Assembly (NCBI RefSeq): GCF_025118155.1
Contig: NW_026251393.1
Span: forward strand, 806,001 to 870,000
Direction: 5' to 3'
Length of the DNA stretch: 64,000 nucleotides
Source: Cokeromyces recurvatus
Taxonomy: Eukaryota; Mucoromycota; Mucoromycetes; Mucorales; Mucoraceae
The notes beneath the pieces were generated by a model. It searched no databases. It was not told the DNA's origin and saw only the letters and a program-made list of their open reading frames with translations. A program made the position numbers and the translations under genes. Positions 1-57,213 of the stretch are shown here, piece by piece; positions within the stretch are counted from its first letter, which is position 1; the number at the start of each line of letters is the position of its first letter.

Positions 1-1249
1 TTGGGAGAACAAGTTTCGTGATTACCACACCATAAAATGGCATTCTGGCTTCGTTTAATCAATCATACTGTCGATAAACTTGATTAGTATAAAAGAAGCT
101 ATCAATACCAAAATCCTTTTTCTTTTTCCTGTTATTATTCATATATGCGACGAGGAATGTGTTGCGTCATTTTGTACATGTTCTTAGTATATAAACTCAA
201 GTAAAAAAAAAAGGGTCATTTTTTTTTGTTAGAGATGAATCTGAAGCAGTTTTTTTTTCCCATGCTTTTCTACTATTTGTCATATTGAATAATTTGAAGT
301 ACAAATGATAGAAAGAGTAGGAAATAAAAGATTCTTTTTGATGATGGCTAAGATTTGTATTCAACTTTTTTTTTTTAATGACTTAAGGACACTCACTTTT
401 AATCTATTCTAGTAATTTATAGAGCACCCAAACAATTTATTAATATTAGAGGGAGCTTCTTTATTCTATTATATTTCTATTCTTTAAAATCTGTATTATT
501 TTATTCATCTTTCTTTCTTTCTTCCTTTTTTTTTTTACTGAAGTATCACAAAGTTAATGTAAGCCTTGATGTTAAGAAATTCTCTGGTATAAAAGGTTTC
601 CTTATGCGGCATGCCTACGCTTGGTCAATGGGACCTGAGTCAAGAGGACCCCAGGCATTTAAATAAACCTAGTGATTGTTCTATGATTTTTATTTTGTAG
701 CAGAAAAAAGAAAGAAAAAAAAACTTTTGGGATTAGTTGTACTTTCATATTCTTGCTATCAATTTGTCGCTGTTGAAGACTTATTGCTTAAGAAAAGTCC
801 AATTAAGATTTTAGTATATTATTAATCAAGTAAATTATATCATAAAAAAGAGCGTCACCTTATTATTGAATATTCACTGCAGGTTAGATCATTATTATTT
901 CTCTCTCATGTCTTATGTTTTTTTTTATTTACTTGATCCTTTTAGTTTAAATAATAGAATCCATGTTTTAGTTCTCCTAAATTATTACAGTTGTATTTGT
1001 CGAACACTGTAAACCTTTTGCCAAAAAAAAAGTCGTAAACTTAAGAGGCAGAGGACGAAGATTGTATTACAATTGTCGTAGCTCTAATTGTGATGAATAT
1101 AGGGTACATGGAGGGGGGGGGAGAAGAAGACCAGTAATATCATCAGACAAAGTACAACATGCACTACTACTATTTTAATTACTGTAATTCATCTTTATTT
1201 TATTTTATTTTTTTGTGCATATAGTAGTAATATTTTCTTAGTAAGTGTA
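1..1249. other. AT-rich non-coding stretch
   Basis: No open frame with convincing coding character was found. The stretch is AT-rich with several oligo(T) runs and a short G8 run near 1112. A slightly GC-richer patch lies at 600-660. It ends at the TA dinucleotide (1248-1249) that abuts the inverted-repeat element starting at 1250. Confidence 0.6.
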
Positions 1250-1460
1250 CAGGGTGTTTCGAAATTATTCACGCATCAACAGGATAAAATTTCAAGCACT
1301 TGAAAAAATAAAATTCACGCATCAACAAAATAAAAATTCAAGCACAAACTGAATAAAAAATCAAGCACTGTAAGATTTATTAGATGGGCTTTCTGTCTAT
1401 TTTGTTAATGCTTAAATTTTTTTCATTTAAAAAGTGCGTGAATAATTTCGAAACACCCTG
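1250..1460 (+). mobile_element. 211 bp MITE-like block, left copy
   Basis: The block has near-perfect 25 bp terminal inverted repeats, starting CAGGGTGTTTCGAAATTA and ending with its reverse complement at 1436-1460, and is flanked by TA at both ends (1248-1249, 1461-1462). Size, ends and TA target fit a non-autonomous Tc1/mariner-type miniature element. Internal short direct repeats carry the words TTCACGCATCAACA and TTCAAGCAC. It encodes nothing convincing. Confidence 0.7.
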
Positions 1461-1462
1461 TA

Positions 1463-1578
1463 ACACCAAGTCGTTATATCAAGCGCAAAAAAAGCATATA
1501 ACACCAGGTTGTTATATCAAACGCAAAAAAAAGCATATAACATCAGGTTGTTATATCAAACTAAAAACGTTGTGTAAC
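1463..1578 (+). repeat. Three 38-39 bp subterminal direct repeats, left
   Basis: Three tandem units each begin TAACACCA or TAACATCA and contain GTTATATCAA followed by an oligo(A) run and GCATA. The inverted copy of the array lies at 3941-4056. Subterminal repeat arrays next to terminal repeats are typical transposase-binding regions, so this is probably part of the functional end of the element rather than a random satellite. Confidence 0.65.
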
Positions 1579-2079
1579 TGTGTTGTTAGCGACAATCAAT
1601 CATCATATCATAAAAAACAACCATCTGCCCAATTTTTACGGTATCAAAAGCTCGATTATTTCTTTTTATTAGATGCACGATAGTAGGCAGCTTGGACACT
1701 CTTCATTGATGAGTATTTGCTGAAACGACCAACATTTTTCCCAGCTTCATAGCAAGCAACCCAATCCATTTTGACTCCATGTTGTTTTCTATAGTCATCT
1801 ACAAATTGCCAATCATTGAGGTTGGATGTACGTTCTTTGACTGTCGAATCGCTTGCAGATGATGATACAATAGCATATTTCGTACGTAACTCTTCCATTA
1901 ACTCTAGCCCATCATTAAGACAGTCCCATGTTCGCTTTTGAGTACAAGACTCAGGAACATTCTCCTCCAGACGTGACACTGCCAGTGTGATATTTCTTTT
2001 AAAATATCAAATAAAAAATATTAGAAAATAAAAAATAATTTTAAGACAAAAAGAGTCAACGAGACCGAACAATAGTTCT

Positions 2080-2781
2080 TGTTTTAAGTAGAAAGATAAG
2101 GAAAGAGAAAAAAAGAAAGACAAGTCTGTGAAAACTTTGTATAGTTTATTGAGGATAAAATAATACAAAAATTGTACAAGAAGAAAAATAATATGGAAAA
2201 ATGACGAGTGCTATTTATATGTTTTTATGAGGTAGGTCCTATTAATAGGAGTGTGATTTAGATAAGTGAATACTGCTATAATAAAGCATTATGTGTAAAT
2301 GTTGTCAGTGTAAATGTTGTCAGTGTAAATGTTGTCAGTATAAATGTTGTCTCCGAATAATTCTGCTTGTAATAAGATATATTTTTATCTTTAATCTACC
2401 TGAGCTGTCGCTGCTACTAATTATTATTTCTAGGGTAAGCAACGCGTTCATATTAATTCACAGTGAATATTCCAGCTATAACAATAATACCAATTATTTA
2501 TATGCAACTATTATTATTATTATCCTCCAAGATGTTATTACATAACAATAATCAGCATTATAGATGTATATATAATATGTATGACTTGTATAAATAATTA
2601 TGTGATTGAATATAATAGTCATAACCCTATTGAATTCTTGTAATTATGTAATACACTGTATATCATTATTTTTAATGCTCGATGACTGCTATTAAGACTG
2701 AATGTTATAACCTCTTTATTATGTAATAAATGATGGTTTATTTCTATTAACTTGGTTGTAAATACGACTACAATCATAACA
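2080..2781. mobile_element. Nested 702 bp solo LTR-like element with 5-bp target duplication
   Basis: The insert begins TGTTTTAAG and ends CATAACA, giving a TGTT..AACA inverted terminus. It is flanked by GTTCT at 2075-2079 and 2782-2786. The related LTR at 31074-31397 has the uninterrupted empty-site sequence (AATAGTTCTAAAGTC) at the matching position. It is AT-rich, has no coding potential for reverse transcriptase or integrase, and contains a short 15-bp tandem repeat. Confidence 0.75.
2290..2350 (+). repeat. 15-bp tandem repeat, about four units
   Basis: The unit GTGTAAATGTTGTCA is repeated nearly perfectly about four times inside the nested LTR. The Cys-rich open frame it creates is an artefact of the repeat. 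Confidence 0.7.
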
Positions 2782-3940
2782 GTTCTAAAGTCAATTATCT
2801 TTATTTATGAATTTAAATTGATGGGGTATTTATAAGAATTGTTAAAGAGGTCTGAGGATAGGATGTGAATCAGAAAAGTGTTAGTTACGACCGAATTAGG
2901 TATATTGTTGACAACGAAGTGTTAGTGATTTTAATATTATTAGATGGAGCGGATCAAGAGAGAGTTAGGATAGAATTTCTTAAATGAATTTATGATCCGC
3001 ATGTTTAATGATGAAACATGGCATTATAAGTCAGCTCATGACAGCCAGTTTGAATTGCGCCGATGCCTTATTGCAGATAAGATTAAGGGCATCTTGACGT
3101 GCATCTTCGTTGGCTGCTTCATTTTCAAATATACGTTTGGCGATCTCGTATAATAATTTAATTGTTGGGTCCTCCTTTTTCACTGTGCCCAAGATGGACA
3201 GTTTCTGTTCAGTGAAAAAATGGCCAAGTGCTGCTAAGGGATGAAGTGGCTGTTGATCTAGATATGCAGAAATGGTTGATTCACTAATGAAATAACAATC
3301 ACGTGCCCAACCATGACAATAAACGCGCTTGGAGAAAGGCAATTCCTTGCAATCGTAGGTTAAGTCCTTGAATTCCTGACTTGTATTGTGAATACAAAAG
3401 ACTACTACCACTGGCAATATTGGGTGTTGTTTTCTTATCATCAGACAATACTCGATGAGTCGACGGAAAAAAGCACCATTAGCAGCGTATTGGACTTCTA
3501 TAAGCACAGGCGGTAATGTCTTGGTTTTTGCACGGTTATTTGGACAGTAAAATACATCGGATCTGGTGTAGTTCGTCCATTCTATGGGTTTTGTGCTGTA
3601 TTCATTTTCAGCGTGTTCGCCTACACAATTCAGAAAATTAGTAGGATTCTTGATAAAATATTGTTATGCATACCAATAACACTTTTTATAATAAGATTGA
3701 TGACCAGTTCATGATTCAATATCCATTTATTCATTAAGTCTGTTCCTGGTGCGTATTTTGGTGGCAACTGGAAAGAAAGATTTTCAGTGTCGGAGTGGCT
3801 TGCCATGAGAGGTGCCAGTGATATAACAAATGAATATAACAAATATAACAAATGGATATAACAAATGGATATTATTCAAAACACGCGGCTTATGACTGCG
3901 CCATAGTTGCCCAGGCCATCTAGGTAACAAAGTATGGTTG

Positions 3941-4269
3941 GTTACACAACGTTTTTAGTTTGATATAACAACCTGATGTTATATGCTTTTTTTTGCGTTT
4001 GATATAACAACCTGGTGTTATATGCTTTTTTTGCGCTTGATATAACGACTTGGTGTTACAGGGTGTTTCGAAATTATTCACGCACTTTTTAAATGAAAAA
4101 AATTTAAGCATTAACAAAATAGACAGAAAGCCCATCTAATAAATCTTACAGTGCTTGATTTTTTATTCAGTTTGTGCTTGAATTTTTATTTTGTTGATGC
4201 GTGAATTTTATTTTTTCAAGTGCTTGAAATTTTATCCTGTTGATGCGTGAATAATTTCGAAACACCCTA
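3941..4269 (-). repeat. Right terminal inverted repeat, with second MITE-like block
   Basis: This is the reverse complement of 1250-1578. The outer 4059-4269 corresponds to the 211 bp MITE-like block, flanked by TA at 4057-4058 and 4270-4271. The inner 3941-4056 is the inverted copy of the three 38-39 bp repeats. The near absence of differences over 329 bp suggests recent homogenisation or recent insertion. Confidence 0.8.
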
Positions 4270-4405
4270 TATGTTATAGGTAAAGAATAGGATGGTGTGT
4301 TTGTAGTAGATAAAAAATGTTACCAAGATAAAAAAAAAGTTTATCCTTTTGTCAAGCCCTGTACTTGTTTCCTTATATTTACTTGATCTTTTTTTTTCAA
4401 TAAAT

Positions 4406-31844: not shown

Positions 31845-32465
31845 GAATGGATTGGGTTTTGTGTTAATTTGAGGGATGATTGGGCTAGATCTGATATTGG
31901 GAACACCCGCCATAATAAAGATACCGAAAACTAAAGCCCCATCTCATACAATTATTGGTGCTATATACGCATCTAGTGTCATTCATGTAACAATAAAGAA
32001 GCCACACTCCCCAAGAAAAGAGAAGCTTCAAATCAAAGAGATGGCGGCCACACAAAAAAAAGAAAAGTGAACAAAGGTAAAAAGCGAGCTGCAAATTAGT
32101 TTATTATAGAGGAACCAGTAATAGAGTGCGTTGATATTAATGAGGATAATGCCCAAGATAATATCACACCTGCATCAAAGGTACAACAACTGTGCACTTT
32201 ATCAAATTCATTAATGGTCTGCTTGATGTCATGGATCTTGATGAAAACTTAAAGAAAAGTTATTTAGTAATGGATAATTGTACCATCCATAAATCAAAAC
32301 CGATGATCAGGAAGATTGAAGCGTCACAGATTGTTGACTGAAGAAAAAATGTCTGAAAGAATTGATGAGGCTTGTAATGATATACCTGTTAAGAATTTGT
32401 ACAACTTCGCTAGTCATCCTAAACGACAAATCATTCATTGTTATAATAAAACCCCATTCTAAATA
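31845..32465 (+). pseudogene. Tc1/IS630-type DDE transposase relic
   Basis: Fragments in shifting frames keep the family order. GFCVNLRDDWARSDIG lies near the first catalytic strand (31852-31900). It is followed by TPAIIKIPKTKAPSHTIIGA, then in another frame FINGLLDVMDLDENL and VMDNCTIHKSK (second Asp region, about 32205-32300), and finally ERIDEACNDIP..NLYNFASH. Several frameshifts and stops make it non-functional. Similar relics sit at 38560-39340 (reverse) and 55440-55680. Confidence 0.7.
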
Positions 32466-44917: not shown

Positions 44918-46439
44918 ATGCTACCAATAAATGGTATCGAAGAAACAGATTTTGAAAAACATGAAAGACTATTAAAAACAATATCTAAATTCGATATGGT
45001 TGACATTGGTGAAAGAGTTCATGATTTACCTGACGATTTGAAAGATGTTAAAAACATTCTAGTCACTGGTGGTGCTGGTTTCATGTAAATATCTTTAAAA
45101 AGTAGAAGAGGAAGAGTGAAGAAATAATGTTTATTTATTTTATTCTATAGTGGATCCTTCCTTGTCAGAAAATTAGTTGTATTATATCCAGAATATCATA
45201 TATATGTTATAGATAAACTTGACTATTGTGGTTCCTTACATAATTTAAAAGCTGTCAAAGAATTCCCAAACTATACATTTGTTAGGGTAAATGATATTTC
45301 TCAAGTTTTTTTTTTTTTTTTTTTTTTTAGGTTATTTATGAATAAAGAATATATATAGGGTGATATCACTTCTGCAGACTTTGTTTCTTTCTTTTTGAAG
45401 GAAAAAAAGATTGATGTTATTTTCCATTTAGCTGCACAAACTCATGTAGATAACTCATTTGGAGATTCATTTGAATTCACAAAGTATGTAGATATATAAA
45501 TACATATGAAGAATGGATGATTTATATTATATTAGGAATAATGTAATGGGTACGCATGTGTTATTAGAAGCAGCTAAAATTAGAAAAATTCGAAGATTTA
45601 TTCATGTTAGTACAGATGAGGTTTATGGTGAAGTTATTAATGGAGTAAGTTTCTTTTTTTTTGTTTATGTTTAATACAAGTATATATCTTAATTTATTAT
45701 ATCCATATAAATAAATATGTATAAATATTAGCCTGATTGCATAGAAGATACAATTTTATCTCCAACGAATCCATACTCAGCTACAAAAGCCGCTGCAGAA
45801 TGTCTTGTCAAAGCTTATCACAAGTCATTTGGATTACCTATCATGATCACTCGTTCAAATAACGTATATGGTCCATATCAGTTCCCAGAAAAGATTACTT
45901 CAAAGTTTGTTTGTAGTTTACTTCGTGGTAAAAAATTATATATTCATGGCGATGGACTTAATTCTCGAAAATACCTTTATGCTGCAGATGTAGCAAATGC
46001 AATTGATATCATCTTTCATAGAGGTGATGTAGGTGAAACTTACAATATTGGATCACCCTCAGAGATATCAAATTATGAAATGGCAAAACGTTTAATTCTT
46101 TTGTTCGGTTACAAGGAGAATGAAATCAATGATCATATAGAATATGTGAGGGACAGGCCTTTTAACGATAAACGTTATGCAATTGATTGCTCTAAATTAG
46201 AAAAGTTAGGCTGGACTCCTAAAGTGAAGTTTGATGAAGGTTTATTAAAAACAAGTAAGTTAATATAAAGGAATATATGTTATGTGTATGTGTATGTGTA
46301 TGTATGTGTTGACTATTTACACATATAAAAAGTTGAATGGTATAGACAATGTACTGATACTTGGTGGGGTGATATCTCTAGTGCTCTCATTCCTCATCCT
46401 TTCAAGGTTACACCTTCTTATGATGTATCTTCAATATAG
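44918..46439 (+). CDS. Nucleotide-sugar 4,6-dehydratase (RmlB/TGDS-like)
   Basis: About seven exons with frame-keeping splices, from MLPINGIEETDFEKHERLL to SYDVSSI. Short-chain dehydrogenase fold: the NAD-binding motif GGAGFIGS is completed across intron 1, and DKLDYCGSLHNL follows. HLAAQTHVDNSF, STDEVYGEV, the catalytic NPYSATKAAAE (YxxxK) and RSNNVYGPYQFPEKI are all as in dTDP-glucose 4,6-dehydratases. The Asp-Glu pair of the dehydratase active site is present in TDEVYG. Eukaryotic members act on UDP- or dTDP-glucose, making a 4-keto-6-deoxy sugar on the route to rhamnose-type sugars; the actual nucleotide is unknown here. The 40-residue N-terminal extension before the Rossmann start is unusual. 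The C-terminus ends with WYRQCTDTWWGDISSALIPH. Confidence 0.9.
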
Positions 46440-47736
46440 AGAATAATACTACTACTGTTGTATAATTAATTTTTAACTGAGTTTTGATTATGTAATAAAT
46501 ATTTTAAATATAATAGTATCATTAATGTAATAAATGCATACAATAAGTTGCCTTTTCTTAGTTGCTTGACGCTAAGAAATTTAATTTGATCATTAGTTGT
46601 AAATTTTTTCAATAGTAAATAAATCCCACTTTCTACTACTACTACTACTACATATTATACGTATCAATTACTCTATTCTCATACTGTTGCCTCTTCTATC
46701 TTATGAGTCTATACAGGTTAATATGATAACTATTTGTTAAAGAATATTTCAAAAAATAGCATCTAAAATATATCACTAATAAATGAAAATCCTTCCTTCC
46801 TTCCTTCTTAATAACAGCTCAGCTCAGCTCAGCTCAATTTATTCATTGAACAGAAGTTACTATATCAAAAAAGCTATTAATATGTAGCTTTATCTTCTTC
46901 TTTTCTTTAGAAACTTCTTTATTTGGAATAAACTGAAGTATAAACACATTTAATATTATAAAACTTCTTAATAACAGTCATTCATAAGAGTGATTTTAAT
47001 ATCTTTATTGACCGTCACAAAACCTTTCTTTTTAAGATCTTGTTTCTTCACTTCTGGAGGTACGAGATAATATCAGACAAAGACTATAGTTAAGTTTTTA
47101 TGTGATTTATTATTCGATTTAATTCTTATCAGTATTTATATTAAATAATTAAATTTGCTTGAAAACTGGAAAATCGTAATGATAGAAATAATGCATAAGT
47201 GGTTGTCTCTTGTTATTAACTAATTATGCCGATATCTTCTATATTTACATACAACACATACTTTTGACTTCTTCCTTCTGGATTCTAAATCCTTTATCGT
47301 TGGCTTGAAATCTTTTCTTATTCTGCCTTAGTTATTTTAAACAGCAGATTGTATTCTACTTCTATTGACTGCTTATTTATTTCGTTTATCACTAAACTGC
47401 ACAAAGATGATTTAGTAATGATTTTCAAGTTTGGCTGTCAATTATTAAAATACTTTGAAAATAAGAGACTGTAAACCAAAATTAAAATTTATATCCTGTA
47501 TTTAACTTTTCTTTTTTTTTTAACGTAAGCGAAGAACCTATTTTAGATCCTTTTAGTACTGTGAAAAGCATACTATTTATTATCATTCTCTTTTCTTTTT
47601 CTATTCTTTTTTTTATTATTAACTCCTGTAAATATATGAGGTAGTTACCATATCTAGATTCTTTATTTTAAAGCCTGTCATTTAAAATAGACACGTGTTA
47701 GTCTTTTAGATATACAATGTATCGACTGTCATTATA

Positions 47737-47779
<43 letters not shown>

Positions 47780-48837
47780 GGTAATTTCTGAATTATTTTT
47801 TTTCCCTTGAACTCATTAAAGTTTTTTTTTTTTTTTTTTTTTTTTTCTTGAACATATTACAGTCTTTTTTTTTAATTTCTTCACTTTGTTCAAAAGAACT
47901 TCTCCATTCAGTTTGGATATTATGTAGTTTATCAGTGTACTTTATGGATTTTAATTTTATTAATATCTATAAGGCTAAAGACGTAATAATTTAACAATAA
48001 TAATGATGAAATTTTATTAAATATCACAGGAACAGTTTCAATTTTTTTTATTGAATACGTTAGATTATAAAGTAGGTTAGTAATGTTTAGTGGGAAAATG
48101 ACTGACTATAATCGGCTTACACTTGAAGAAATTCTCATAGTAGTCGTTCATTGCTATTAACGAGATAATTTTTTTATTATATGCCCAAGATAATGAACTA
48201 CTGTGATTATAAAATAAGCTTTATCATAATCTTCAATATTATTACATAATGTTCCTGTACACTTTACTACAAGATCTTGGCAAGAAAAAAGTTACTTAAG
48301 TTTATCAGGCACTTTTTTTTTTTAAAAAAAAAATAATGATATTAATAATGATATTAATAATAATAGCCGAGACATTATACATATATTTATTTATAATGAA
48401 ATAATTTAGTATTGATTATGCTGCTGCCTTTCATTCGTTTCGTGTATCGAGTTTTTTTCGATTATAAAGAACCAAGACATAATTATGCTGTTATACATAA
48501 TATATCATCATATTTTTAGTTATAAGACAAAATTTTTTTTTGACTCAGATTATTTACATAACGAAGAAACAACGTTTTGATATTACTATTATTATAGAAG
48601 AGAAATGATAATGATGGAGTGTTATTATGTGACTTTTTTTTTCTTGAAGTTTAGATACTATTTGACTAATAATCATGCCAATAATTCCTACCATTTATTT
48701 GCTTTCAAGTCAGCGATGATTATAATTATCTGTTATCTCTTAAAATAATAACCGTTTCTTGCTTTTTTATTTTATTTTATTTTCTCTCTTTTTTTTTATA
48801 CATATTTATTTATTTATTCTCTTCATTTGCTTGAGTT
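46440..48837. other. 2.4 kb gene-free AT-rich region
   Basis: No gene could be supported. It contains a GCTCA pentamer repeat at about 46818-46837, CTTC repeats at 46792-46808, an A40 run at 47738-47777, and a T24 run at 47823-47846, so that A and T tracts face each other. There is a short T/A inverted run near 48311-48331. It is the longest stretch without host genes or recognisable elements and may hold decayed repeats. Confidence 0.55.
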
Positions 48838-49160
48838 ATGTCAGTTCAACAACAATTATTACCCATTTATAGTCAATTGGATTTTCAAGAAACGTCTCCT
48901 TCTAACATATATCAATTTGTACAAAATACAAATAGAAAATATAGAAATCCACCTGTTTACTTTTCAATCAAAATTATTAAAATTGATAATGATAAAAATA
49001 AACGAATATGTTATCCTGGTTCTATATTTGAAGGAATTGTAAACTTAAAAGTGGATACGCCTCTTGCTGCTCAATGCTTAATACTTGTCTTTAAAGCCGC
49101 TGGTAATTTATAATTTGTTACTAGTTAACGATACATAGATGCTGGTTTTTAATTTTAATC

Positions 49161-49206
<46 letters not shown>

Positions 49207-50277
49207 CATATTCAGATTGATAATAGCTTTGAAAGTAAACCGTCTAAGGAACAACTGTTTGTCATTCGTACTGTATTATGGGGTTTACCATCTCATACAG
49301 GAGATAAATGGCCCATATTTGAGACAGGAGTATATCAATTTCCATTCATATGTAAAATGCCTATGGTCAACTATCCTCCATCATTTAAACATCACCTAGC
49401 TTCTTGTGAATTTGAATTAGTAGCTTCTTTAATCCGTCCGGGTATTCGACCCTTTCAGACTACACCTTATTTAATACGATATGAACCTTTTATTCCATCC
49501 ATATCTATGATTCATGAACACTCCAGTATATATCAAGAAGAAGTACAATTATCGAAAACTTGTAAAGTTTTATTAACTTTAAAGAAAGGCTGCTATTATA
49601 ATCTATCAGATCCAAAAGAATCAACTATAAATCTTCAATTGTCCATTGTGAATTCTGTTCAAAAAGAGGAAATAGACATAACAAACAAAGATAGCGGCCC
49701 TCTTTCCCCTCTTCATCTTAAAAGAAGTAGTCATTGTGATAATAATAATAACTACAATATACCAAGTCATATCGAAGCCTATATAAAAAGAGAAATGGAT
49801 ATTACATATGCATCTTATCATAAATCACATATAATGGTGATGACCCATACGAATGAATCAAGTTTTTATATAGGTCAACTCAATGGACACCGTACTTACT
49901 ATATCAACGTCCCCATACCTACAGAACTAAGGAAAGAAAATCAAGCAACGCTATTAAAGAATGTGAATCTATTAGACATGACAACTACAGTCGACTTTTC
50001 AAAATATGTCAAGATAAAATATAAGCTGTGTATTACAGCTAAAATACGATATGGTCTTATTCCTGTTCGACGTCAATTATTTTGTGTTCCTATTCGATTT
50101 GGTACAATGACTCCTGGAGAGCCATTACCTCCAACGATAGTAGATTATCGAGATCCTTCTGTTGCTACAGATATAACTTTATCTACAAAGCCAAAATTTT
50201 TACGTCCAACTAAAATCGAAGAACAACTACCTGCTTATAATGACGAATTTTCACCTCCTATTTATGATTCCTTATAA
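48838..50277 (+). CDS. Arrestin-like trafficking adaptor (ART type) with PPxY
   Basis: Two exons (48838-49102, 49205-50277) give 445 aa. An arrestin-N-like beta domain covers the first about 190 residues (PVYFSIKIIKI, YPGSIFEGIVNLKVDTPLAA, TVLWGLP.., YQFPFICKMPMVNYPPSFKH, YLIRYEPFIPS). A C-domain-like part follows. The extreme C-terminus carries LPAYNDEFSPPIYDSL, with a PPxY motif (PPIY) that in ARTs recruits a Rsp5/Nedd4 ubiquitin ligase to cargo. A role in ubiquitin-dependent endocytosis of permeases is inferred from the family. The intron is odd: T24 followed by A19 and then the AG acceptor. The stop is 17 bp from the left arm of the next element. Confidence 0.85.
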
Positions 50278-50294
50278 ATCCTGTATTTCTATTT

Positions 50295-51409
50295 ATTATA
50301 AATACTCTCATATTTTACTCATTGAAATAAAATCATCTGTTATCTGATTTATAAATTACATTTCCTCGGTGGCATTTATCCATAGCAATATACATATTCT
50401 TCTGTAAACCAAACTTATTAAATGTAGAAGCCATTTCAATCTTAAACAGTAGAAAGTGTGTTTTGTTATCATGTGGTAATGCTCTCTTTTTACCAGCTAT
50501 CGTTTGCTTTTATATATATATATATATGGCCTTTGGACTTTGGACTTTGGAGACTGCTGAGAGGCAGCAATTGATCCATAGGTTGACATGCAGCCCAAAA
50601 TACTCAGAGGTTGGTGTCTTACGGTTGTACTTCCACTTCCACTTCCACTTCCACTTCCACAGGTGTTCCTTTCTTGGTTCAACTAACAGGACCCACCTTT
50701 AGATAAAAGTTATGTTTCTACATTAGAGAAATGAATTCAGCTACCGTAGATGGCTTATACTTTGTTGGTATCCAAGACATGGCAAGTAGGTGAGCCAAGC
50801 CTTATTCAAATCCTTCTATATCATATCTATTACTGTATCTAAATATTGTTCTTCTTCTTCTTCCTCTGACGAAATTGAAATACCCAAAATATTTTTCCAA
50901 ACAATATACAGCGTATTACTAGTTGCTTCTGCTTCTTTTGGCTGATATTTAGGTTCTTCTGTATCTAATCGACCACAAATAAAACCATTAATAATCATAA
51001 ATTCTCTCTCTTTTTTTTTTTTTTTAATAAAGTATAGTCAATCTTTTAGCTATTGTTTAGCCTCGACATTGACTTGTCCTGTTTATAAATATTAGACATA
51101 GGGAGAATTTATGGCTGCGTTTATGGCTACGTTTATGGCTGCGTTTATGGCTGCGTTTATGGCTGCGTTTATGGCTGCGTTTATGGCTGCGTTTATGGCT
51201 GCGTTTATGGCTGCGTTTATGGCTGCGTTTATGGCTGCGTTTATGGCTGCGTTTATGGCTGCGCTGAGTTATAAATGCGTTTATGGCTACGTTTATGCCT
51301 GCGTTTATGCCTGCGTTTATGCCTGCGTTTATGCCTGCGCTGAGTTATAAATGCGTTTATGGCTGTGGCTCTCCTAATTTTCTACATGACACTCCTGTTT
51401 TTAATACTT
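50295..51409 (+). repeat. Left inverted arm (1,115 bp)
   Basis: Begins ATTATAAATACTCTCA and ends TTTAATACTT next to the unique centre. It contains small frames on both strands, including 50816-50998 (reverse, 60 aa, acidic C-terminus) and 50497-50682 (reverse, Gly-Ser repeat), each exactly mirrored in the right arm. Their coding status is unknown. Confidence 0.85.
51111..51266 (+). repeat. 12-bp minisatellite, 13 units (left arm)
   Basis: The unit ATGGCTGCGTTT is repeated 13 times with one CTACG variant in the second unit. It is followed by a partial array of ATGCCTGCGTTT variants to about 51340, separated by GAGTTATAAATGCG. The open frame it creates (Met-Ala-Ala-Phe repeats) is a repeat artefact unless translated. 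Confidence 0.9.
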
Positions 51410-51647
51410 GGTTCACTACCTGGTACATAACTTTTAATTCATGTATTTTAAAAAAGATAATATAATAAATTCTCATATACTGATTATATTTTTTAATACT
51501 TTATACTTGTTTGAAATAGGTTAATGTTCGTAATTATGCTTTTAAATATTTCTTTATAGTTATATTTCAAATAATGATAGGTTACAAGAAAAGAATTTGT
51601 TTTTTCACAATCATATTTTATTTTCTATAGTAAATACCTCACAGAAG

Positions 51648-53427
51648 TTATTTACGTGGCTTTTCAGTTGATGTAGATGTGATAGGAATTATATTAATTG
51701 GCGATTTTTCAAGACAATGATCTAGCCAGCTGCTATCATCAGTAAGCTTTTTACTGCCCTTTCTCACAGACTCAAACACATCCTTGACCATTACTTTTAA
51801 ACAATAGACTTGTACAAGTACTGGTAACACTTTCTCACCAAAGTTAATAATGTCGGTAGGTATTTGAAGGGCTTTACCATCAGTGATTCTTGTAATATAA
51901 CCTTTAGGCCTATCAGCTATAATCACTTTCATATGCAACCCTGTGAATTAACAGGCACAGAATATATGTTAGTTCATTATAGACACTATATGAAACCATC
52001 TTTTATTTTACCTGAATGTACTACACCTACAGTACATAAATTGTTGTATTCACCTTTGTTTTCTATAACAAGTAAATCTAACATATCTTTTAAAACTTTT
52101 GGAAGTTTCATGCCTCTTTCTTGAATTGTCTTGTTTCCTTTTAAATTGTAATTTTTATCGACTTCTGAAGCGCCATATTCAAAGCTATTGGTACTTTTTG
52201 GACTTGCTTCACGGATTAAGAAATCAAACCTATGACCCATTGGTTTACGAGCATGGTTATTAACATCTTCAATAGTTCTTTTAAGACCTTTTCTAATCGA
52301 GGATGCTATGGAAACTCCCTCCCCTCTAGAACGATTGATCGTGTTAATCCAAAAGAATAAATAAAAATAATATAATAATGAGCTTACCTGACTATCTCAA
52401 GTCCTTCTAAGTCACCAAATATATGGTCTATCATGCACCAAATATGAATGTTATACCAATTCTCCAAGTGGTCCTTCTTCAAGCTGCCGTTTTCATATTC
52501 TCTTACTAGTGTGTATACAGAATGCTTTATCCAATCTAAATCGAAGTGTTTTTCACGATCATAACATTCCTCCCAGCTTTGTTTTTCATTAAGTACTTTT
52601 CTGATATCAGCAGCTGATTGGCAGTTGAATTTATTCAAATACTGTTTAATAACGTTAGGCAACTTTTTGGGTTTGGGGCTATTATATGCTTTGATTTCCT
52701 CAATTTCTTCTTCTGTAAATAAGCCATTTTTAATATATGATTCAGAATCTCCAACATCAAAAATTAGTGATTGAGAAGAATGATCACCAACTTGTAACTT
52801 TCCAAAAGCATACAAACTGTCCTCCACTATTTTTCCAGTAGAAAGAATCCATTTGTCATTATTTTTCAAGTCTCTAAAACATTCCTCAACTTCAGCTCTC
52901 AGTTTTGCAGCTATTAAAAAAATTGCTAAAAAAATATACTATACTACTACTTTGTTTCAATACTTACTATGAACTTCATCAAGATGGTTTCCAAGTTCAA
53001 TCGTTGTATCGAAATGAGATGTACAGCTTGGACAACCAAAGTTTTCTGTTACATTTTGCTGTTAATAGAAAAAGAACATTAGGGAAAAAAATGCAAACAA
53101 AGTTGATTAATTAAAGTACTTACTCTTGACTTGGCGACAGAGTCAGAAATATATTTTTTGCTAGAATGTGAAATGTTAGATATAAGAAAAGCTTCGTGGT
53201 GATAACTTATACTTACGTTTTTGTGTTATATACCCTACTTCTTGTACTTGGATACTTTATCCCTATAATGTTAGACATGTTATAATAGAGCTGCATTTTA
53301 AATGTGGGCTTTCTTAGATACCTTCAACACTTTCATAATGATCCCTTAAATTACGAGAATTAGAAAATTTACCATCGTTACAAAGATGGCAGGAATATAT
53401 TATTGTGTAAAACTCAATGGTAGACAT
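51648..53427 (-). CDS. C2H2 zinc-finger plus PD-(D/E)XK-like protein of the inverted-repeat element
   Basis: About seven exons on the reverse strand, from ATG 53427 to a stop at 51648-51650, all joined by frame-keeping GT..AG splices. The N-terminus has a finger-like YSCHLCNDGKF..NLRDH, then a canonical C2H2 finger FGCPSCTSHFDTTIELGNHL ending DEVH. The middle is helical (WYNIHIWCMIDHIFGDLEGL). Next come IVRGEGVSIASS, KPMGHRFDFLIRE and SFEYGASEVDK, an E...D...ExxxxE pattern that could be a PD-(D/E)XK catalytic core, then GMKLPKVLKDMLDLL. The C-terminal part includes VGVVHSGLHMKVIIADRPKG. I associate this architecture with a large, uncharacterised multicopy family in Mucoromycota. It looks intact. 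Its place inside long inverted arms suggests it may mobilise the element; that is hypothesis. Confidence 0.7.
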
Positions 53428-53539
53428 TAATATATAATAAAAAAATAATGGTGATGTAGTTATTAATGTAAAGAAAGATACTGATTACGGTATTAAATCA
53501 ATAGAAGAGAAACAAAAAGATAGTACTCAGCAGCAAGTT

Positions 53540-54778
53540 AAGTATTAAAAACAGGAGTGTCATGTAGAAAATTAGGAGAGCCACAGCCATAAACGCATTT
53601 ATAACTCAGCGCAGGCATAAACGCAGCCATAAACGCAGGCATAAACGCAGGCATAAACGTAGCCATAAACGCATTTATAACTCAGCGCAGGCATAAACGC
53701 AGGCATAAACGCAGCCATAAACGCAGCCATAAACGCAGGCATAAACGCAGGCATAAACGTAGCCATAAACGCATTTATAACTCAGCGCAGCCATAAACGC
53801 AGCCATAAACGCAGCCATAAACGCAGCCATAAACGCAGCCATAAACGCAGCCATAAACGCAGCCATAAACGCAGCCATAAACGCAGCCATAAACGCAGCC
53901 ATAAACGCAGCCATAAACGCAGCCATAAACGCAGCCATAAACGTAGCCATAAACGCAGCCATAAATTCTCCCTATGTCTAATATTTATAAACAGGACAAG
54001 TCAATGTCGAGGCTAAACAATAGCTAAAAGATTGACTATACTTTATTAAAAAAAAAAAAAAAGAGAGAGAATTTATGATTATTAATGGTTTTATTTGTGG
54101 TCGATTAGATACAGAAGAACCTAAATATCAGCCAAAAGAAGCAGAAGCAACTAGTAATACGCTGTATATTGTTTGGAAAAATATTTTGGGTATTTCAATT
54201 TCGTCAGAGGAAGAAGAAGAAGAACAATATTTAGATACAGTAATAGATATGATATAGAAGGATTTGAATAAGGCTTGGCTCACCTACTTGCCATGTCTTG
54301 GATACCAACAAAGTATAAGCCATCTACGGTAGCTGAATTCATTTCTCTAATGTAGAAACATAACTTTTATCTAAAGGTGGGTCCTGTTAGTTGAACCAAG
54401 AAAGGAACACCTGTGGAAGTGGAAGTGGAAGTGGAAGTGGAAGTACAACCGTAAGACACCAACCTCTGAGTATTTTGGGCTGCATGTCAACCTATGGATC
54501 AATTGCTGCCTCTCAGCAGTCTCCAAAGTCCAAAGTCCAAAGGCCATATATATATATATATAAAAGCAAACGATAGCTGGTAAAAAGAGAGCATTACCAC
54601 ATGATAACAAAACACACTTTCTACTGTTTAAGATTGAAATGGCTTCTACATTTAATAAGTTTGGTTTACAGAAGAATATGTATATTGCTATGGATAAATG
54701 CCACCGAGGAAATGTAATTTATAAATCAGATAACAGATGATTTTATTTCAATGAGTAAAATATGAGAGTATTTATAAT
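53540..54778 (-). repeat. Right inverted arm (1,239 bp)
   Basis: Reverse complement of the left arm, longer because the minisatellite and flanking block are expanded. The outer end is GAGTATTTATAAT at 54778. Confidence 0.85.
53584..53962 (-). repeat. 12-bp minisatellite, 15 units plus extra higher-order block (right arm)
   Basis: Read on the reverse strand, 53962-53783 carries 15 units of ATGGCTGCGTTT. This is followed by two copies of a higher-order block with ATGCCTGCG variants and GAGTTATAAATGCG spacers, where the left arm has fewer. The difference shows that the arrays change length independently. Confidence 0.85.
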
Positions 54779-55332
54779 ATAGAATAAAGATAAATATGAA
54801 ATTAAGATAATAAGAATATAATATGTTAGTGTAGATATCAAATGCAATACTTCTTGTGTTGTTAAAAAGTACAACAAGCATAAAGGAATTATTTAGATCT
54901 ACATCAAGATAACTACAAAAAAATCAAAGTTGTTTGATATATACAAGCTATATATATTTATCTTATCTTTGATCACTATTAATTGGCTGCTCTTGCATCT
55001 TTTATTTTATCAATCAATGCTCTTTATTATTCATGTATAATAATTGAGTAGTCCAGTATATAGACTATATAAAAGCCTACACTGACTGTAGACTATTCCA
55101 TATAATAACAAGTTCAATATCCTAATATGAATTCTCTTCTCACACTCATTCACTTCTGCAATGATTAATTCAAGTGCTTATCCAATTACACGATCACCCT
55201 GTCTTCTCTTGTCTGACAACGCTCTCTCTACGCTACACTTTAACCTATTGCAATTGTCTATACTTCGTTTACCGCTCATTGCTGTGCTACTATTCTTTTT
55301 GATTATAAATACTTGATACTTCTTACAACTCT

Positions 55333-55367
<35 letters not shown>

Positions 55368-55439
55368 CAACTTGACTCTGTTTAAGACTTTTAATAAACT
55401 CACTAAAGTCTTAACTCGTAACATATATCATTGTGACAG
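54779..55439. other. AT-rich, possible LTR-like DNA with A33 tract
   Basis: No gene. A TATA-like CTATATAAAAGCC at about 55065 and pyrimidine-rich downstream sequence with TATAAATACTTG near 55309 resemble an LTR promoter region, but clear ends or target duplications were not found. A33 lies at 55334-55366. Confidence 0.4.
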
Positions 55440-55850
55440 CAAATTGTGGGTAATTGGTATACTGCTTTGTTTCCATTACTATATTCACCTTTTCTAAATC
55501 CCATTTAAGGGTGTTAGTCAAAGATTAAGGAAGAAGTACGCAAAACGTCTCTTTTTGAAGAACGAGATGGTTGTTGACAGAATTGAAGAGGTAGTTCAGA
55601 AAGTTACAACTGAAAACTGTCAAAGTTGAATCCATCACTCACGAAGATTATTTACAAAATGTATGAATATGGAAAGAAAAACCTTCAAAAAGTGTTCTAT
55701 AGTGTGCTCCAACTTAAGTTCGAAGGGTGTTCCAAATTAAGTTCAAATTTTTTTTCTAATTTAATTGGTTAAATGTTCCATTTTATTTTTCGAAAAATGT
55801 ACCACTAAATTCAAAAAATGTTCAATTTGAGAGTGGAAGTGCTTTTTTAC
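55440..55850 (+). pseudogene. Tc1/IS630-type transposase C-terminal relic with subterminal repeats
   Basis: Broken frames give FPLL..SPF..P followed by SKIKEEVRKTSLFEERDG, like the C-terminal PPYSPFLNPIE..W segment of Tc1/IS630 transposases, then TTENCQS.IHHSRRLFTKCM. Immediately after, 55699-55760 has two 23-bp direct repeats (TGCTCCAACTTAAGTTCGAA, then TGTTCCAAATTAAGTTCAAA), which look like a transposon end. Non-functional. Confidence 0.55.
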
Positions 55851-56003
55851 TGTATTTGTATCTATTCCAACTCAGTAACGAAATAAAAAAAAGCAGAAAA
55901 ATACGTCATTTTTGGAATTCGAGTTTTTTTTTTTTTTTTTTTTTTTCGTTTCTTTCTTGCAGTTAATAATTTTCTTTCTTTATTTCTTAATAAAACATAT
56001 AAT

Positions 56004-57213
56004 AATGACTACACAACAAGGAAAAACATATCAATTTAAACTTGTACTTTTAGGTAGATAGAAATGCACTTGAAGTTGAAAAATAGATGAAAAAAAAAAA
56101 TGAATAAAATAAAATAAAAATGAAAGCATGAGATGGTTAATCTCTCTTTTTTTTTTTTAACAATAATAATAAAACTTAAATAGGTGAATCAGCTGTAGGT
56201 AAATCAAGGTAATTTCATATACATATATAGTCCTTTGAAAAAGAAAAAAGAAAAAAAAAAGAGACTCATTATTTTAAATTTGAATAGCTTGGTAATGCGT
56301 TTTGTTAAAGATCACTTTGATGAATACAGAGAAAGTACCATTGGTGGTGAGTATAGTGACATATGACCCACTTTGTATTTCATACACCCTTTTCGATTAT
56401 TAGGGAAAAAAAGTAATGGAGAATTGGTATCTTATTATTATTATTGCTTTTAGCTGCCTTTTTAGCACAAACAATTTCATTAGATGATAATACTACAGTG
56501 AAGTTCGAAATTTGGTAATATATTTAGATATAAATATATATAGAAATTAAATTAAAATTAATAATCTACTTTATTTAGGGATACGGCTGGTCAAGAGAGA
56601 TATAAAAGCTTAGCACCAATGTATTATCGTAATGCAAATTGTGCTGTAGTTGTTTATGATATTACACAAGCTGTAAGTTATATGTAAACATTTATAAGTA
56701 TTAAAAAACTAATTTTATGTATTCATTATAATTAGTCTTCTTTAGATAAAGCTAAGGCTTGGGTAAATGAATTACAACGTCAAGCAGATCCCAATATTGT
56801 TATTGCATTAGCTGGTAATAAATGTGATCTTGAAGCAAGAAGAGCTATTGAAACAAAGGTAAATATTACAAAAAAAAACCGTATAAAAGATAAAATTGTC
56901 CTTAATATTCCCTTTTTTTTTAGACTGCTCAAGAATATGCAGATGAAGCTGGCTTATTATTTTTTGAAACATCTGCAAAAACAGCCGAAAATGTAAATGA
57001 ATTATTTCATGCGATAGCAAAGCGTATGCCTCTTGATCAACTTGCAGACAGTTCACGTGGTAGAAATAGAGCAGGATTAAACTCTCGTGGTGGTGTAGAT
57101 TTGGAAAATTCAGGAAACCCTAATGCTGCTAATGGTTGTGCTTGTAAGTCATGTTTATTCAATAAAAAAAAAGAAAAAGGTTATATATTAATATATGCTT
57201 AATTTTAGGTTAA
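56004..57213 (+). CDS. Rab5-family GTPase (Vps21/Ypt5-like)
   Basis: About eight exons from ATG 56004 give roughly 205 aa. Rab5 controls early-endosome fusion. Motifs are [17 protein letters not shown] (P-loop), [13 protein letters not shown] (switch I with the Rab5-type AAF), [26 protein letters not shown] and FETSAK. The P-loop is encoded largely by a 25-nt exon (56184-56208). The last splice joins ..GCT T to GT TAA after the acceptor at 57208, producing the C-terminal GCAC, the two-cysteine geranylgeranylation site. Without that splice the protein would lose the lipid anchor and gain a basic tail. Closest by motif to Rab5/Ypt5 rather than Rab7 or Rab22. Confidence 0.93.

Follow-up and report, generated by a model that had tools for sequence, protein, structure and literature searches.

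Background

It is generally assumed that Tc1/mariner (IS630) transposons require a single enzyme. In Tn7, TnsA works with TnsB, and Kolobok elements have TTAA as their target. Accessory nucleases have been reported for ISL2EU and Kolobok elements (PMC4482050, PMC9587614). ISL2EU elements of the PHIS superfamily show an AT target and duplication and encode a Harbinger-like transposase, with a YqaJ domain in a second ORF. In foldback elements such as FB, Galileo and Tetris, a middle domain lies between long inverted arms that contain tandem repeats. One paper (PMC4079207) states that the foldback form may arise from various transposon lineages through loss of the transposase and lengthening of the ends, and that most foldbacks seem to be related to Mutator.

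Here we analyze a 64-kb stretch of a mucoralean genome (the window), in which a gene for a C2H2 and nuclease-like protein lies between long inverted arms. Elements carrying genes of this family resemble Tc1/mariner DD34E transposons in their TA-bounded TACAGT... ends and in the DDE_3 transposase, with a 34-residue D-E spacing, of their intact relatives. They differ from them in size (about 4-10 kb), in that for several no transposase belonging to the element itself was recognised, and in arms that reach 1-2 kb; the window copy moreover has a single terminal repeat. Unlike ISL2EU, they have TA-type ends, DDE_3 and no YqaJ domain in Pfam, while KolobokE and KolobokP combine another transposase superfamily with another nuclease family. 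The likeness to foldbacks covers arms, tandem repeats and middle domain, although the middle domain of the window element holds an open nuclease gene and the element is single-copy. Among the entries listed in our literature search, which covered titles and abstract openings, none reported this nuclease family or described a PD-(D/E)XK accessory in a Tc1/mariner element.

Structure of the locus

The window contains an inverted repeat with a left arm of 1,116 bp (50294..51409) and a right arm of 1,240 bp (53540..54779; both unstranded), so that the arms of 1.1-1.2 kb described in an earlier sequence-only reading are real. The outer 970 bp (50294-51263 and 53810-54779) are 100% complementary and the inner block (51169-51409 and 53540-53780) is 96% complementary. 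A 12-bp minisatellite occupies 51108..51339 in the left arm (plus strand, around 19 units) and 53610..53965 in the right arm (minus strand, around 29 units), and outside it the arms show no difference in 814 + 70 = 884 positions. Because the length of the minisatellite differs between the arms, the proposed base-for-base mirror, with paired coordinates summing to 105073, holds for the outer 970 bp and breaks down in the remainder. The window has two separate inverted repeats with arms of at least 100 bp, the other being 1248-1578/3941-4271 (the three remaining rows of the inverted-repeat list fall inside the minisatellite described above), and four 9.9-kb stretches elsewhere contained no inverted repeat of 100 bp.

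Searches with three arm queries, of 267 bp (outer arm), 576 bp (middle) and 1.1 kb, matched the two window arms and partial relics (70-85%) at C15 and C22, and the outer and 1.1-kb queries additionally matched short pieces of the window arms themselves. Further copies with the same ends, for which the sequence-only reading had proposed a search, were not found; the full arms are confined to this locus, and we reject the view that they are the ends of a multi-copy family. We consider it likely that the arms did not arise from a missed hairpin adapter during assembly, because a unique spacer of around 2.13 kb parts them and their minisatellites are unequal in length.

The single, apparently intact multi-exon gene claimed between the arms assembles as an open model on the minus strand, predicted to have seven exons and 469 codons plus stop, with GT...AG at all six introns. 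Exon 1 (53322..53427) provides the start codon and a first C2H2-like finger (Pfam zf-C2H2_4, residues 11-33), and is followed by exon 2 (53217..53262), exon 3 (53124..53160) and exon 4 (52968..53058), where a second finger of the form C-x2-C-x12-H-x4-H was read by eye. In the alignment, exon 5 (52388..52910) holds the first conserved glutamate, E243, and exon 6 (52012..52325) the remaining residues of the nuclease-like core, D302, E317 and E322; exon 7 (51648..51940) ends with the stop codon. Pfam returned solely sub-threshold C2H2 fingers for the protein (zf-C2H2_4, scoring 20.9 bits where the cut-off is 27).

The E...D...ExxxxE pattern noticed in the sequence is conserved across a 29-row alignment, which comprises 29 of 34 family proteins (P0003, P0006, P0008, P0012 and P0024 were left out; a first alignment had comprised 32 of the 34, without P0015 and P0018). 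Among rows with a residue at the position, E132, D191, E206 and E211 (P0005 numbering) are present in 28/28, 28/28, 28/29 and 29/29, respectively. At position 214, the canonical place of the (D/E)XK lysine, 13 of 28 rows have K, and K230 in the next helix is found in all 28 rows. In fold prediction, the check proposed together with the pattern, the fairly confident AlphaFold model of a relative contains the alpha-beta-beta-beta-alpha-beta core of the PD-(D/E)XK superfamily and has restriction endonucleases among its fold matches. Judged from this model, the product of the window gene is predicted to have a PD-(D/E)XK fold. The top-ranking matches are mitoribosomal proteins, whose chains are placed above nucleases, including the Type IIG restriction endonucleases DrdV and BpuSI; these two show 7-11% identity, and a further difference from them is the unconserved canonical lysine. 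TnsA is absent among the 50 fold matches listed, which is uninformative either way. A sequence-profile search of the PDB gave no match up to E 10, an NCBIfam scan of three family members found none, and YqaJ was absent from the Pfam results for the window protein and ten relatives.

Transposon relics and related elements

The sequence-only reading had seen no DDE transposase at the locus. We detected a decayed DDE_3 catalytic core in both arms, at 50345..50494 (minus strand) and 54579..54728 (plus strand), an assignment that runs through intermediate related relics. The arm relic matches relics at C62:245818 (E 4.8e-9) and C15 (E 5.1e-12), the former of which shares 36.5% identity with an intact DDE_3 (E 1.4e-23). 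Direct comparison of the arms with a library of ten DDE_3 proteins and a Pfam scan of four arm ORFs gave no DDE_3 match. A short ORF at 54063..54254 (plus strand) bears a weak resemblance to the N-terminal region of this relic family (E 7.2e-5 to C22; 0.02 to C64:443079-443204, which adjoins the DDE_3 piece C64:443193-443303, E 4.3e-5).

Beyond the right arm, colinear with the relic at 54579-54728, there is a C-terminal DDE_3 relic at 55485..55677 (plus strand; E 2.6e-4, 5.0e-5 and 4.5e-4). It is followed by the right terminal inverted repeat of a Tc1-like family (55665..55854, minus strand) with its outer end, TACAGT, at 55854. This repeat is 87% identical over 122 bp to one at C1:519884, which adjoins a DDE_3 piece, and 13 more matches to it occur at other places in the genome. 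A search of 46000-57000 for the left terminal repeat gave nothing below E 0.05 on the left side of the gene, and we could identify no target duplication at the element. Since the relic goes on beyond the right arm, this arm is probably the original; the left arm appears to be a copy, in inverted orientation, of the transposase-side end. In the window element DDE_3 survives as decayed pieces, with no intact transposase gene, and the element probably cannot move by itself.

Six intact DDE_3 elements of 1.71-1.72 kb, all DD34E and with TACAGTGCG ends, occur at six sites in the genome. The spacing between the second D and the E is 34 residues in nine of the ten library sequences, namely the six intact elements and the copies from C13, C45 and C15; no E was found in the tenth, C34. 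Around several relatives of the window gene in this genome the ends are of the TACAGTGC-TCCAC type, and those of C45, C9a (left), C9b and the inner element of C62 are related to each other. TA-bounded terminal repeats are common to these four and to the transposase elements; the repeats of the six intact elements share 82-84% identity with those of C45, across some 50 bp, and 65-71% with those of C9a and C9b. In C23, the match is confined to the inner part of the repeat.

Of 15 other family loci examined in this genome, five lie between inverted repeats, whose ends are Tc1-type where they can be read: C62 (1,885 bp, 99.3%), C9a (258 bp, 98.5%), C9b (140 bp, 97.1%), C23 (at least 197 bp, 99.5%) and C45 (67 bp, 95.5%, plus weaker pieces). 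One locus is a weak case (C63, 40 bp, 82.5%) and nine show no bracketing repeat, four of them with flanks of 1.2-1.5 kb only; three of the nine (C26a, C1a and C1b) sit in the distant clade of the protein tree. These data support the mobile character that the sequence-only reading had ascribed to the family, while members outside any inverted repeat, which it had named as evidence against, exist for part of the loci.

Transposase and nuclease genes co-occur in few elements. In C9a, a decayed but near-full-length DDE_3 (E 1.8e-71, with a match to residues 78-449 of 452) and a nuclease gene share one element; in C23, the nuclease exons have one part of a split DDE_3 on each side (E about 1e-40 and 2e-7), and the locus also holds a nested element whose ORFs, judged by eye, are reverse-transcriptase-like and recombinase-like; and the arms of C62 contain DDE_3 genes or relics. 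In C9b, C45 and the inner element of C62, the nuclease gene is the sole recognised gene between the repeats, barring nested or abutting ones, and in C64:553135-558327, a sibling element by its ends, no family gene was recognised by eye in 2 kb read from its middle. Proximity to DDE_3 pieces alone is not specific, as they occur in 7 of 15 family regions and in two of four control loci, which were not random (two surround weak zinc-finger-only matches and two surround arm-relic matches). Terminal repeats matched at E <= 0.01 in nine of 16 family regions and in one of ten control stretches; the match reached the outer 15 bases of the repeat in six and none, respectively, and fell short of its outer end in three of the nine (C12, C63 and C1c).

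Origin of the arms and role of the nuclease gene

Because several of its sister genes are carried within Tc1-type elements of this genome, we favor as the likely explanation that the nuclease gene belongs to Tc1-like elements as an accessory or a passenger. The window copy would be a foldback-like wreck, in which an inverted copy of the transposase-side end was placed on the opposite side. With both genes together in few elements, the nuclease gene may be an accessory or a captured passenger. The host lineage would be the TA-bounded, DD34E Tc1-like DNA transposons of Mucoromycota with a DDE_3 transposase, which, judging from the ends, would cut and paste the element in cis or in trans. The C2H2/PD-(D/E)XK protein probably binds DNA and cuts or trims it, and may thereby aid transposition or repair-dependent copying. 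The window copy would be a rearranged derivative that kept the right terminal repeat and the DDE_3 relic up to 55854; the 1.1-kb piece with the dead DDE_3 and the minisatellite was presumably copied, in this direction, onto the left side in inverted orientation, producing foldback-like arms around the still open nuclease gene.

The original proposal was that the protein itself mobilises an undescribed class of transposons with long inverted repeats. C9b, C45 and the inner element of C62, where the nuclease gene stands alone between repeats, fit this, as do the matches to restriction-endonuclease-like folds, but deletion derivatives moved in trans would give the same picture. A nuclease-driven class would need elements without DDE, whereas DDE_3 genes or relics are found in C9a, C23, the C62 arms and the window, and the ends belong to the family of the six intact DD34E elements; the proposal finds no support here and we regard it as very unlikely. 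We give equally little credence to a selfish hyperparasite that cuts DDE_3 transposons and is copied into them in a homing-like manner. The nuclease exons of C23, lying between two halves of one DDE_3 gene, and the high cross-genus identity and tree conflict described below would agree with it; however, the nested element may have split that gene instead, C9a retains its nuclease gene beside a near-full-length DDE_3, and no common insertion site is evident among the copies.

The arms could also be an inverted segmental duplication, in which break repair with template switching at the short inverted ATTATAAATACT made a palindrome around an incidental gene. They are identical outside the minisatellite, their full length occurs nowhere else, and the 12-mer ATTATAAATACT present at the arm ends recurs inverted at 55302. 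Such repair may well be the origin of this one left arm, but as a general account it is highly improbable, as it leaves unexplained the five other members between inverted repeats, most of them with related ends.

An unlikely elaboration of the accessory reading is a two-enzyme eukaryotic transposon, in which a DD34E transposase would cooperate with a C2H2-guided PD-(D/E)XK nuclease, much as TnsB does with TnsA in Tn7; the nuclease would cut the second strand or the empty site, spread between fungal genera and, by way of its breaks, give rise to the inverted arms that recur around it. With Tc1-like transposons, a so far uncharacterised protein family gains a likely home. If the nuclease does join in transposition or repair, this could explain both the near-identical long arms and the apparent jumps between genera.

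Possible spread between fungi

The window protein is 79% identical over 98% to a relative in Circinella and 82% over 57% to one in Gilbertella, and the C62 member reaches 93% to P0015 and 84% to Rhizopus arrhizus. The neighboring arrestin gene, our one-gene baseline, shows 29-56% across genera (47% for Gilbertella, 34-40% for Rhizopus). Given relatives at 79-82% against this baseline, sequence identity suggests that the nuclease gene may have spread horizontally between fungal genera. Tree conflict is also seen for the family, in a protein tree of 30 of the 51 then-known proteins with the window protein and six other sequences of its own genome. Pattern searches gave 17 matches in viral_contigs and 68 in the prokaryotic genome_contigs, with no relatives among them; the family occurs in many Mucoromycotina and Glomeromycotina genomes.

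Structure of the inverted repeat in the window

The window (G000:C62:806001-870000, in a genome of 28.05 Mb and 64 contigs) carries a real inverted repeat, whose arms (50294-51409 and 53540-54779) are identical at 884 of 884 positions outside the minisatellite. Arms this alike would point to a recent event or to gene conversion. The nuclease gene between the arms has a frame open across its seven exons. An open frame at 49159-50277 encodes an arrestin-like protein whose C-terminus seems complete when compared with relatives, and the left arm starts 17 bp past the stop codon of this frame. The DDE_3 (Tc1-like transposase) relic of the right arm runs to 54728 and, after approximately 700 bases with no DDE_3 similarity, picks up again by 55485-55677, followed by a terminal repeat with its outer end at 55854. 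The left arm holds the same relic and stops at 50294, and a search to its left found no terminal repeat. Since the terminal repeat and the continuation of the relic were found only on the right, this side looks like the original and the left side like its inverted copy. The arm edge falls on the 12-mer ATTATAAATACT, which recurs inverted at 55302 and may mark the switch point. Another decayed DDE_3 relic lies at 31894-32459.

Inverted repeats around other family members

We listed 37 matches to the family in its own genome and surveyed 15 loci besides the window for bracketing inverted repeats, ten with flanks of at least some 2.7 kb per side and five, including C23 (extended later), with 1.2-1.5 kb. 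Outside the survey were C15:239706, C12:1018369, C6:470691 and the finger-only matches at C18, C27, C4 and C16:16228. Brackets were found at the C62 member (465987-467859 and 471796-473680), C9a (502142-502399 and 505832-506089), C9b (509017-509156 and 513294-513433), C45 (1033120-1033270 and 1037717-1037914, partly decayed) and C23 (4603-4799 and 14704-14900, extending to the edges of the sequence examined), while C63 has a weak one (40 bp at 82.5%). None was detected at C26a, C26b, C1a, C16 and C1b, nor within the short flanks of C1c, C62z (a contig end), C12 and C1d. These brackets bear out the sequence-only reading of a mobile family with recurrent inverted repeats.

In the 10.3-kb interval C23:4603-14900, whose ends are 99.5% identical, a DDE_3 gene is split; the interval also holds nuclease exons and, by eye, ORFs resembling reverse transcriptase and a recombinase. 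Within the C62 element, a 318-bp unit is repeated three times in tandem (468693-469644; copies approximately 99% identical), a further instance of tandem repeats inside such elements. C18:167185-167445 and C27:231574-231834 match only the N-terminal finger half, with identical scores, which suggests a duplicated gene with the finger module and without the nuclease half.

Association with Tc1-type ends and DDE_3 transposases

Part of the family shares Tc1-type ends: C45, C9a (left end), C9b, the inner element of C62 and a repeat near C1d have TACAGTGC/TACTGTGC...TCCAC...TCAATT outer ends in common. The C1d repeat adjoins the nuclease fragment there and does not enclose it. With genome-size-corrected E-values of 0.01 or better, and leaving out self-matches of C9b, C45 and C1d, terminal-repeat queries matched 9 of 16 family regions (C23 scored as a miss on its short region) and 1 of 10 control stretches. 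The controls comprised four non-random loci (two at finger-only and two at arm-relic matches) and six 7-kb slices of the window. Matches reached the outer 15 bases in six of the 16 family regions (C62, C45, C9a, C9b, C1d and the window) versus none of the ten controls.

DDE_3 is very common in this genome (at least 184 matches, with 150 of 403 candidates scored). Six intact elements of 1,710-1,720 bp, at six sites, encode DD34E transposases; their ends are of the TACAGTGCGTCCGCCGTCAATT kind, and their repeats show 98.6% identity. By tblastn, seven of the 15 family regions (C9a, C62, C45, C26a, C1d, C23 and C63) yielded DDE_3 pieces, as did two of the four control loci. The piece in the C45 region belongs to a separate nested element, that in C23 was recovered more fully from the extended region, and that in the window was detected via a related relic. 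The arms of the C62 element are themselves decayed DDE_3 elements, each with separate TACAGTTAG ends (465987-467566, where the inner end shows 89% identity across 37 bp) and lying directly against the repeat of the nuclease element at 467565. At C9a and C62, as in the window, the right-side transposase points outward.

Inverted pairs of matches to the right terminal repeat of the window also occur at C64:553135-558327, C4:161281-170630 and C45:1125383-1135879, enclosing 5-10 kb each, a small part of which was read; none of the 37 listed matches places a family gene there.

The proposal of a new, DDE-free class found no support, as Tc1-type ends and DDE_3 genes or relics accompany the nuclease gene in some copies. 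The fold model of a family protein is PD-(D/E)XK-like. The elements probably represent a Tc1-like lineage carrying a C2H2/PD-(D/E)XK gene. They would be mobilized by the DDE enzyme, with the nuclease either assisting or being carried along, and the arms would grow as their transposase-side end is copied in reverse orientation. Such lengthening can be likened to the elongation of ends suggested for foldbacks in PMC4079207.

Probable spread between genera

Identity between the window protein and its relatives is 79% for Circinella (98% of length), 82% for Gilbertella (57%) and 64% for Mucor circinelloides (100%). In the tree the window protein pairs with Circinella (95/87), and the M. circinelloides copy joins Phycomyces and one from Benjaminiella (100/100). 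For the C62 member, identity is 93% over 450 amino acids to P0015, another relative, and 84% to Rhizopus arrhizus across 384 alignment columns, counting those with gaps. The neighboring arrestin, the single baseline gene, shows 47% identity in Gilbertella, 54% in M. circinelloides, 56% in Benjaminiella and 34-40% in Rhizopus (29-56% across all 38 matches, from which Circinella is absent). Several family copies seem broken, such as C16 with 19 stops within one stretch, which disfavors strict conservation and speaks for horizontal movement of the family.

Other nuclease-like elements

A 2.2-kb element with C9b-type terminal repeats (L090, C1:1254082-1256240) contains the fragment RKIDLLV...LELSSNEFK, which had no match in a Pfam search and by eye may represent another PD-(D/E)XK-like family. 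A second TA-bounded element in the window (1248-4271), with 331-bp arms 99.7% identical, holds a 116-aa ORF and, on the minus strand at 3034-3663, a nuclease-like gene distinct from that of the family (RSDV...PPVLIEVQ), whose product has sub-threshold matches to DUF2887 and the Rpn family. The repeats of a related copy (C3:633447-635081) are approximately 80% identical to those of the intact DDE_3 element C13:92467-94262.
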